The notes under the pieces: model-generated | The model's input: only the letters and a program-made list of their open reading frames with translations | What the model was told of the DNA's origin: nothing | Database searches by the model: none | Position numbers and translations under genes: made by a program | NCBI GenBank assembly: GCA_015660965.1 | Contig: JACTVG010000006.1 | Coordinates: 1 to 64,000 of the forward strand | Source: Methanoregulaceae archaeon | GTDB taxonomy: Archaea; Halobacteriota; Methanomicrobia; Methanomicrobiales; Methanospirillaceae | Length of the DNA stretch: 64,000 nt | Reading direction: 5' to 3' | Shown here: positions 45,795 through 48,988 of the stretch, piece after piece | How positions within the stretch are numbered: position 1 is the first letter of the stretch | Layout of the letters: every line of letters starts with the position of its first letter

Positions 45795-46076
45795 ATGAAA
45801 GAGATTGAATATAAAAAAGAAATAACGATTGAATACAAACCCAAAATCTCGGCCAAAAAAATATTAATCTCGATTAGTGTCGGGAGTTCTCTTGGGGTAT
45901 TATTCTCATTGATAGTTTTGTTAGTTGGGGGTGTGACATTTACAACATTTATGTTCTTTGGCTTTGGCACATTTTTCATCCTAGCGTTTGTATATTTGAG
46001 AAAGGAACCAGAACTTTCTGAAATTTTTCAAAAATCTGGATCCGATTATATTCGCAACATTCTTTTTAAACGTTAA
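45795..46076 (+). CDS. Small membrane protein, two transmembrane helices
   Basis: A 93-residue protein. A Lys-rich cytoplasmic start (KEIEYKKEITIEYKPK) is followed by hydrophobic helices at about 25-47 and 50-68 and a charged tail. Not recognised. It precedes the Nramp-like gene by 113 nt, so it may or may not belong to that operon. Confidence 0.65.
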   Translation: MKEIEYKKEITIEYKPKISAKKILISISVGSSLGVLFSLIVLLVGGVTFTTFMFFGFGTFFILAFVYLRKEPELSEIFQKSGSDYIRNILFKR

Positions 46077-46189: not shown

Positions 46190-47458
46190 ATGGATTTTGG
46201 ATCGACCTTTTTTTACAAATATCGTAGGTTTGTCAAAGCGTTAAAAATATATCTCATCCTTGCTGGTCCTGGTCTCATCGTTATGCTTGCAGATAATGAT
46301 GCTGGCGGGATTACAACTTACACGGTCACAGGTGCTAAATTCGGTTATGGTCTCATCTGGTTTTTATTAATCCTGCTTCCTGTTGCTTATGTCGTCCAAG
46401 AAATGACTGTGCGGTTAGGTGCGGTGACAAAACGAGGGCATGCGGAGGCAATTTTTGACGCTTTTGGATCTTTCTGGGGTTGGTTTTCGTTTCTTGACCT
46501 TGCTCTTGTGAACTGGTTGACGCTTGTCACCGAATTCATTGGAATGACCGCAGCACTGTTAATATTCCATATTCCTCCCCTTATAACTATAATCGTTGTT
46601 TCGATTATCATGATGATCATGGTGCTTCAAGGACGCTATTGGACGTGGGAAAAAATCGCTATCCTATTTGCAGCGGTTAACCTCATTTATATTCCAGCAG
46701 CCTTCCTTGTCCACCCCTCGGTCGGGGATGTGCTCGCGCAGGGCCTCGTCCCGCATTTCCCCGGAGGGTTCAACGGCGAGCTCTTTTTCTTCCTCATGGC
46801 GAACATCGGTACAACGATTGCTCCTTGGATGATCTTCTTCCAGCAGAGCGCCGTGGTTGACAAAGGAATGAAGGAAAAGGACATCCCGTGGGGGCAGATG
46901 GACACCCTGATCGGGTCTGTCTTCACGGTCATTGTCGCAATCTTTTGCGTGGTCGTAACCGGCACGGTCCTCTACGGTGTGCCGGTGGAGAGCGCGGCGC
47001 AGGCAGCAGCTATGATGATTGGTACCAACCCTTGGCTTGGAACCTGCATTGCCATCGGGCTTTTCGATGCCGGGTTCCTCGGAGCGATCTGCATATCACT
47101 TGCGAGCTCATGGGCGTTTGGCGAGGTATTTGGGTGGGCGCACTCCCTTAACTTCAAGATACGGGAAGCCCCGTGGTTTTATGCATGTTATCTCTTTGCA
47201 CTCATCACTGCGGGGATCGTAATTCTCCTGCCGAATGCCCCCCTTGTCCTGATAACGCTCTTTGTGCAGGTTATTGCAGTGACGTTACTTCCTGCAGCTC
47301 TTGTATTTTTAATCCTCCTCTTGAATAACGAAGAGATCATGGGGAAGTATAAGAATACCATTGCGCAAAACATTGCAGGGATTGTCATTGTTGTGAGTAT
47401 CATTATCCTATCCACATTGTATGGCATTACGACTCTCTTTCCAAACCTATTGAGTTAA
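46190..47458 (+). CDS. Nramp-related divalent metal transporter (possible Mg2+ type)
   Basis: A 422-residue transporter with about 11 membrane helices. The SLC11 TM1 motif DPGN is replaced by DAGG (Asp37 kept), and TM6 MPH is replaced by APW (211-213), losing the Met that makes classical Nramps select Mn2+/Fe2+. Nramp-related Mg2+ transporters also lack that Met. A downstream MgtE-type sensor protein supports Mg2+ as substrate. Residues from about 167 to 363 are encoded by GC-rich DNA (about 62% at 46741-46800) against about 30% at 46201-46260. Confidence 0.85.
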   Translation: MDFGSTFFYKYRRFVKALKIYLILAGPGLIVMLADNDAGGITTYTVTGAKFGYGLIWFLLILLPVAYVVQEMTVRLGAVTKRGHAEAIFDAFGSFWGWFSFLDLALVNWLTLVTEFIGMTAALLIFHIPPLITIIVVSIIMMIMVLQGRYWTWEKIAILFAAVNLIYIPAAFLVHPSVGDVLAQGLVPHFPGGFNGELFFFLMANIGTTIAPWMIFFQQSAVVDKGMKEKDIPWGQMDTLIGSVFTVIVAIFCVVVTGTVLYGVPVESAAQAAAMMIGTNPWLGTCIAIGLFDAGFLGAICISLASSWAFGEVFGWAHSLNFKIREAPWFYACYLFALITAGIVILLPNAPLVLITLFVQVIAVTLLPAALVFLILLLNNEEIMGKYKNTIAQNIAGIVIVVSIIILSTLYGITTLFPNLLS

Positions 47459-47475
47459 GAAATAAAAGTGAAACT

Positions 47476-47682
47476 ATGATAACTCCTGAACGATTGTTTG
47501 GACAAAGAATAGGTAGGGTAATCCATAGTTGGATAGATAAAATCAACGAGATTAATAGGAAGTATGCAGAGCCGAAGATCCAGATGTCAGGTGGCGTTAA
47601 ATTTGCCTTACTAATCTTGCGGTTATACCTGATCTTTCTCGTGCTGCTCCTTGCATATAAATTCTATACGATGCTCAGATAG
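47476..47682 (+). CDS. Small single-pass membrane protein in the transporter operon
   Basis: A 68-residue protein: basic amphipathic N-terminus (RLFGQRIGRVIHSWIDKINE) and one hydrophobic helix at about 43-64. It lies 17 nt after the Nramp-like gene and 22 nt before the MgtE-N/CBS gene, so it is cotranscribed. Possibly an accessory subunit; no known family recognised. Confidence 0.6.
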   Translation: MITPERLFGQRIGRVIHSWIDKINEINRKYAEPKIQMSGGVKFALLILRLYLIFLVLLLAYKFYTMLR

Positions 47683-47704
47683 GTGATGATGGAGGTTCTG
47701 GCAA

Positions 47705-48988
47705 ATGGTGAATGAAACAAGTGCTGGAAAACCAATAAAACCGGATAAACACTTCCTTTTAAGTGACTTGCTTGGGTCGATGGTATTTTTACGAGGAAAA
47801 AAGATCGGCAAGCTTACAGATATGGTTATTGTCGAGACCGGGAAACTTCCGGAAGTTAAGTTTTTTGTTGTTACTCGACCTTTTGGATACCCCCCCCTCC
47901 TTGTACCTTGGGAAAATGTCACATCTATTGAACCAGGTGTATGTGTAGTTGATATTGCTGAAATGAACAAATTTGAAGGCACCCCCTCTGAAGACGCCAT
48001 TCTCCTTCGTGATCATATACTTGACAAAAAAGTTCTCGATATGGAAGATTCTGAGGTCGAAGTCGTATATGATATTCGCCTTGTAGAACGGAACGCAAAA
48101 TTATATGTGACAGAAGTAGATACCAGTAAGTCCGCCCGGCTCCATAGACTTGGCATCGGATTTTTAAGCGGTCTTCTGTATCGGGGTGCTGAGAATAAAG
48201 ATAATGGTGCTATCTCGTGGATGTACGTTCAATCCCTCCCTTCGAATATTAGTAGCTTTAAAGGTGACGTCAAACTCAAAGTGCTCAAAGAGAAACTTGC
48301 TGAAGTGCACCCTGCTGACCTTGCTGATATTCTCGAAGAACTTGACCATGACCAGCGTGTCATGATATTCTCCTCACTCGACAATGCACATGCATCTGAC
48401 ACGTTAGAAGAGATCGAACCGTTTGTACAACGAGATATTATCTCGTCTTTAAGTACTGAAAAAGTGGTTCAGCTAATCAATGATATGACACCAGGGCAAG
48501 CAGCAGATATTCTTTCAGTACTTCCATCAGATGAAGCACAACCGATCCTTGCAGCATTACAACCAGAGAATTCAAAAAAAATTCAATCGATCATAGACAG
48601 ACAAGAGGAAAAAGTCATCCATTATACTACACAAAAAATTTTAAAATTTTCCCTGGAGACTATAGTAGAGTACGTCCAGAATGATTATCCGCGACATGCC
48701 AGAGGAAAAGATGTTATAATGTATGTGTACGTTGTGGATGATCATGACAGGTTGCTCGGGGTAATCGATCTTAAAGAGCTTCTTCAGGCAGATGACAAGG
48801 CAGAATTAAAAGATATCATGATTGAGAACGTCATCAGTCTTTCAACAGAGAGTACATTAAAAGAAGCATCCCAACAGTTCGCCCGGTACGATTTCCGAGC
48901 ACTTCCTGTGACTGACGACCAGAACAAACTTGTTGGTGTTATTCCCTATCGTGACGTCATGAACCTTACTCACCATTTCCTTGAATAA
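47705..48988 (+). CDS. PRC-barrel / MgtE N-domain / CBS protein (soluble Mg2+-sensor-like)
   Basis: A 427-residue protein with no membrane helices. PRC-barrel-like modules occupy about 15-170 (FLRGKKIGKLTDMVIVETG), the MgtE N-superhelix about 195-300 (EVHPADLADILEELDHDQR, MTPGQAADILSVLPSDEA), and a CBS pair about 310-425 (VVDDHDRLLGVIDLKELL, ALPVTDDQNKLVGVIPYRDV). In MgtE channels the N and CBS domains bind Mg2+ and gate the pore; here the pore domain is absent and an Nramp-like permease is the operon partner. GGAGGT lies 8 nt before ATG. Confidence 0.88.
   Translation: MVNETSAGKPIKPDKHFLLSDLLGSMVFLRGKKIGKLTDMVIVETGKLPEVKFFVVTRPFGYPPLLVPWENVTSIEPGVCVVDIAEMNKFEGTPSEDAILLRDHILDKKVLDMEDSEVEVVYDIRLVERNAKLYVTEVDTSKSARLHRLGIGFLSGLLYRGAENKDNGAISWMYVQSLPSNISSFKGDVKLKVLKEKLAEVHPADLADILEELDHDQRVMIFSSLDNAHASDTLEEIEPFVQRDIISSLSTEKVVQLINDMTPGQAADILSVLPSDEAQPILAALQPENSKKIQSIIDRQEEKVIHYTTQKILKFSLETIVEYVQNDYPRHARGKDVIMYVYVVDDHDRLLGVIDLKELLQADDKAELKDIMIENVISLSTESTLKEASQQFARYDFRALPVTDDQNKLVGVIPYRDVMNLTHHFLE

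Follow-up and report, generated by a model that had tools for sequence, protein, structure and literature searches.

The window analysed here is a stretch of 64,000 nucleotides at the start of contig JACTVG010000006.1 (Methanoregulaceae archaeon, GCA_015660965.1), drawn from a methanogen genome that is 99.9% complete. It harbors three closely spaced genes on the + strand, namely P (46190..47458), encoding a putative NRMT-type (SLC11/NRAMP-related) divalent metal permease of 422 aa, S (47476..47682), encoding a single-span membrane microprotein of 68 aa that is a probable small subunit of P, and R (47705..48988), encoding a predicted soluble regulator of 427 aa with PRC, MgtE_N and CBS domains. 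The P-S gap is 17 nt and the S-R gap 22 nt, and the three open reading frames lie as placed on this strand in a preliminary description made from the sequence alone. Just upstream of P, at 45795-46076 on the same strand, lies the gene for a protein of 93 aa that has membrane helices and matches no family with confidence. An Rfam scan of the whole window returned two tRNAs as its sole matches, and no M-box was found near the operon.

P matches the Pfam family Nramp (PF01566, E 1e-71), and its best sequence match in the PDB is EleNRMT (7qia, E 2.5e-66), with MntH far behind. The AlphaFold model of P (pLDDT 89.8, pTM 0.89) contains 11 predicted membrane helices, of which helices 1 and 6 are broken, and places EleNRMT (7qji/7qia) on top in a Foldseek search (E 9e-22, TM-score 0.84). 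The DAGG of helix 1 and the APW of helix 6 noticed in the preliminary description are present (D37-G40, and T208-A211 within TTIAPW), the site residues being D37, G40, T208, A211 and W213. The published NRMT signature combines DxxG (helix 1) with TxxA/T (helix 6); it is complete in P, and DxxG-TxxA is found in 57/57 permeases of P-S-R loci. The helix-6b histidines associated with proton coupling are replaced in P by W213 and Q218, and in EleNRMT by W and N. In a tree from a quick search, P joins EleNRMT and the archaeal permeases of R-P loci, separate from the Nramp outgroup sequences, on a branch marked 99*; this placement is approximate because the outgroup branch is very long, and long branches also lie between the P clade and EleNRMT, to which P is 34% identical and from which it is set apart in a separate deep clade. 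Sequence and model thus support the assignment of P as an NRMT-type permease. Haloarchaeal Nramp-like proteins (L020-L028) were excluded as another Nramp-related clade, in which GPGT and TT[IV]VGY replace the metal-site motifs and the helix-1 Asp is absent. Inside P (46190-47458), GC3 moves from 0.35-0.47 over the first 180 codons to 0.60-0.80 over the next 180 and then to 0.45, near relatives being flatter, and this jump could possibly reflect a recombination mosaic.

The Pfam matches of R are PRC, MgtE_N (PF03448) and two CBS stretches (PF00571), arranged as a PRC barrel at 16-84, MgtE_N at 202-296 and a CBS pair at 312-426, with a probable second PRC-like barrel at ~108-140. The cytosolic domain of MgtE (2yvy) is both its closest PDB sequence match (E 1e-26) and the top Foldseek match (E 3.5e-20) of its AlphaFold model (pLDDT 87.6, pTM 0.51), in which the N-terminal part is rich in strands, the N domain is helical and the CBS pair can be seen. 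No transmembrane part, PF01769 pore-domain match or plug helix was found in R, and the protein terminates behind the second CBS, at the expected start of the plug helix; the early reading as a PRC/MgtE-N/CBS protein lacking a pore is thereby borne out. Like the MgtE channel (Thermus thermophilus, 2yvx/2yvy), R has the N domain and the CBS pair, whereas it differs from MgtE in being a separate soluble protein with no pore domain or plug helix and with an extra N-terminal PRC part, and sequence and model support its description as the cytosolic sensor of MgtE minus the pore.

The site residues of R were compared over 78 aligned relatives with TtMgtE positions E59, D91, D95, D226, D247 and D250, whose roles in Mg2+ binding are described together with those of the ATP-contact residues (PMC5882242; PMC5529423). 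The R clade retains 3/6 of these acidic positions: E59, D95 and D247 correspond to D232, D268 and D417 of R and are largely acidic among the relatives, the D91 and D250 equivalents are absent from R and lost across the S-bearing clade, and the D226 position is kept in the R of the window and variable among relatives. The ATP-contact positions Y170, R187, D188 and F227 (Y340, K357, E358 and F397 in R) are mostly retained. Metal gating by an MgtE-type gate is therefore not supported as it was originally put, since R retains part of the Mg2+-site residues and lacks the plug helix; the partial retention of both sites suggests that R could sense Mg2+, and perhaps ATP, by other than the exact MgtE scheme. 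In one relative (G286, L003/L034), a frame change splits the R gene while P and S are apparently intact, for which a sequencing error or decay is possible.

The pairing of an Nramp-like permease with an MgtE sensor recurs far beyond this genome. In a survey of 295 Halobacteriota genomes, 19 NRMT loci were found, and R adjoins the NRMT gene in 18/19, the remaining one having a broken R. Two layouts occur in Halobacteriota, namely P-S-R as in the window, and R-P without S; in every related archaeal locus with S, the three genes share strand and order. A broad scan of 84,980 species genomes yielded 80 fetched loci of many phyla, whose permeases share 51-83% identity with P. R was found in 76/77 bacterial or archaeal loci with enough downstream sequence, and the four of 80 without it comprise three truncated loci and L149, which has no R within 4 kb on either side. 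The position of S tracks the permease subclade, as either P-S-R or P-R-S. Co-occurrence thus confirms the detached MgtE sensor beside an NRAMP permease, and the three-gene set is not due to chance, since the P, S and R families recur in archaeal loci and, truncated contigs and L149 excepted, in the 80 loci of many phyla. On conjugative plasmids of Citrobacter freundii (pPSV, L156) and Serratia marcescens (L170), P-S-R, with P 71% identical, lies downstream of an ArsR-type regulator gene and a gene for a P-type ATPase, with transposase genes nearby.

The pairing itself is not new, as most NrmT genes in bacteria were reported to adjoin a gene for an MgtE cytosolic domain, and feedback gating was proposed (Shin et al., 2014; PMC4072509); among open-licence papers, nothing beyond this study was found that links NRAMP proteins to MgtE_N/PRC or to small membrane proteins. 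The present system resembles NrmT/NRMT (Ca_c0685, Ca_c3329; EleNRMT) in fold, in DxxG-TxxA, in the loss of the helix-6b histidines and in the neighbouring MgtE-cytosolic-domain gene (Shin et al., 2014), here R, 22 nt after S. It differs in being archaeal, in carrying S and in having no M-box riboswitch, although the M-box is described upstream of a subset of the bacterial members only and is non-defining.

S proved to be a 68-residue one-helix protein, as first described, with a hydrophobic helix at ~43-61 and the core PRIxM[ST]...L..LR.YL..L...L..KF, whose L and Y are invariant in 93/93 aligned sequences. It has no Pfam match and no PDB relative. Across loci, S measures between ~37 aa (MPRVKMTRTVKVALYFLRFYLILL... 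type) and 84 aa, and the longer forms carry a conserved INxKY stretch N-terminal to the helix. With pN/pS of 0.18-0.48 among near relatives, S is under purifying selection. Its net charge is +3.3 before the helix and +0.7 after it, and the N-terminus is basic and conserved, which by the positive-inside rule predicts a cytosolic N-terminus. Profile searches place S in 77/77 loci with enough sequence among the 80 fetched, the three misses being truncated contigs, and a combined S profile gave 79 matches at E up to 1 against the ~9,100 ORFs of these loci. Weak S matches (E 0.03-1) from genomes that lack the operon were rejected as chance, the inspected ORFs (L059-L064, L068) being of oxidoreductase type. 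On Citrobacter pPSV and the Serratia plasmid, S lies in the P-R gap with no gene listed there, the PLSDB gene table being incomplete. S was not mentioned in the open-licence literature searched, including the searched passages of both NRMT papers, and may be described elsewhere; within that literature it is an unreported element of the operon, and its least expected part.

In several lineages, the permease carries an S-like helix fused to its C-terminus, namely in Rhodococcus, Mycolicibacterium, Cellulomonas, Arthrobacter, Leifsonia and Streptomyces, as well as in Alicyclobacillus, Burkholderiales and one Bacillota MAG. In the fused tail, an additional helix 12 is followed by a loop on the cytosolic side and then by the S-like helix with an LRxYL core. 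Profile comparison of S with the tail gave 95.7% and a score of 41.5, whereas 54 controls scored at most 21.6 (14 other permease segments up to 12.1, 20 column shuffles up to 10.7 and 20 within-helix shuffles up to 21.6; tail alignment without L173). The added helix 12 gives the fused S part the N-in orientation that the basic N-terminus predicts, and as the tail both matches S and keeps this orientation, the fusions are the best evidence for S as a subunit of P, albeit as an association of homologous parts rather than of these proteins themselves. The idea of a three-protein structure from translation across loci that are in frame (L076, L078, L128) was dropped, since the topology of P and S invalidates a short covalent link.

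On balance, we favour a reading of the operon as a metal importer of three components, with Mg2+ as the most likely substrate, P as importer, S as subunit and R as brake. This reading builds on the observed identities of the parts, their conserved linkage, the purifying selection on S and the fusions. P would carry a partly hydrated ion inward, driven by the membrane potential and free of proton coupling, as demonstrated for EleNRMT (PMC8806188). S would be a small single-span subunit of P with its N-terminus inside, stabilising or tuning the permease, and a physical S-P complex is quite probable. R would act as a cytosolic brake that senses Mg2+ through its MgtE N domain and its CBS pair and keeps P closed at high internal Mg2+; that R inhibits P is reasonably likely, while tuning of R by ATP is a tentative suggestion.

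The substrate of P is likely to be Mg2+. The helix-6 Met is lost, as initially stated, but the loss alone is insufficient for Mg2+ selectivity, because EcoDMT with its whole site converted to NRMT residues moved no Mg2+ (Ramanadane et al., PMC8806188) and an NrmT-group protein of A. capsulatum behaved as a Mn2+ transporter (PMC4072509). Neither CorA nor the MgtE pore domain PF01769 was found in the own genome, corA adjoins P in three genomes (G262, G286, G335) and MgtC/SapB genes lie near relatives of P, which together favour Mg2+. CorA is absent from the source genome (G000) and one congeneric genome, and nearly all relatives have it (97/101); this operon is found in two of the four without CorA (G000, G295), and MgtE in the other two (G003, G277). 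The own genome also encodes an MgtA-type ATPase, hence P need not be the sole Mg2+ route, and its candidacy as the only Mg2+ importer was rejected. Alternatively, Mn2+ or another transition metal could be imported and sensed by R, with Mg2+ as a poor substrate. The A. capsulatum protein, despite its MgtE-like neighbour, fully rescued Mn2+ uptake and Mg2+ uptake weakly (PMC4072509), EleNRMT also carries Mn2+ (PMC8806188), and some plasmid relatives adjoin genes for ArsR, heavy-metal ATPases or CDF proteins; against this stand the NRMT site, complete in all P-S-R permeases, and the CorA, MgtE and MgtC evidence given above, and we regard the Mn2+ reading as unlikely.

S might instead act as an adaptor, holding R at P and passing on the Mg2+ state of R. 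Its location between P and R, or directly after R, in nearly all loci would fit, as would the basic N-terminus predicted to face the cytosol and the INxKY of the longer forms. However, S occurs without R, namely in L149 and, within 1.5 kb flanks, at several further P paralogues from its genome (G345, a Bacillota MAG), the archaeal R-P clade has R and P with no S, and the fusions join S to the permease, no S-R fusion having been seen. Hence S belongs with P and looks like its subunit rather than an adaptor for R, which can accompany P without S, and the adaptor role seems quite unlikely. G345 holds seven NRMT-like permease matches (loci L149, L158, L160-L165); several of these have S directly behind them, and one is a fusion with S. 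That R serves as a chaperone or assembly factor, or regulates some other target, and stays beside P by operon habit, is improbable, even though co-expression of the A. capsulatum MgtE-like neighbour left rescue without measurable change (PMC4072509), the PRC-barrel part is absent from MgtE and S-bearing P is found without R, since R and P stay closely linked through three gene orders in many phyla and the acidic and nucleotide-site positions of R are retained.

With the three-component importer as the favoured reading, S can be set beside known small proteins. AcrZ of AcrB, MgtS of MgtA and KdpF are small single-span proteins that act on a transporter or whose genes accompany one. We know of no sequence relation of S to any of them, and S differs in its association with a permease of the NRAMP family, to which some lineages have it fused. 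AcrZ has been described as a small membrane subunit (PMC7267776).

Since 2014 it has been a question why a detached MgtE sensor accompanies NRMTs. NRMTs constitute the fourth class of bacterial Mg2+ importers. Across many phyla, S is conserved beside, or fused to, this importer branch, and at least two plasmid gene tables omit it; single-gene tests from the P clade may therefore use incomplete complexes. A further-reaching idea, which we consider rather doubtful, gives S the role of an obligate third subunit in a large, mobile NRAMP-related clade, supplying an outer helix and, in loci with R, helping to couple the detached MgtE sensor to a LeuT-fold transporter. If true, this would be a modular Mg2+ gate on a carrier, not a channel. 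S offers a direct test of how the sensor of a channel could be put to new use on a carrier.
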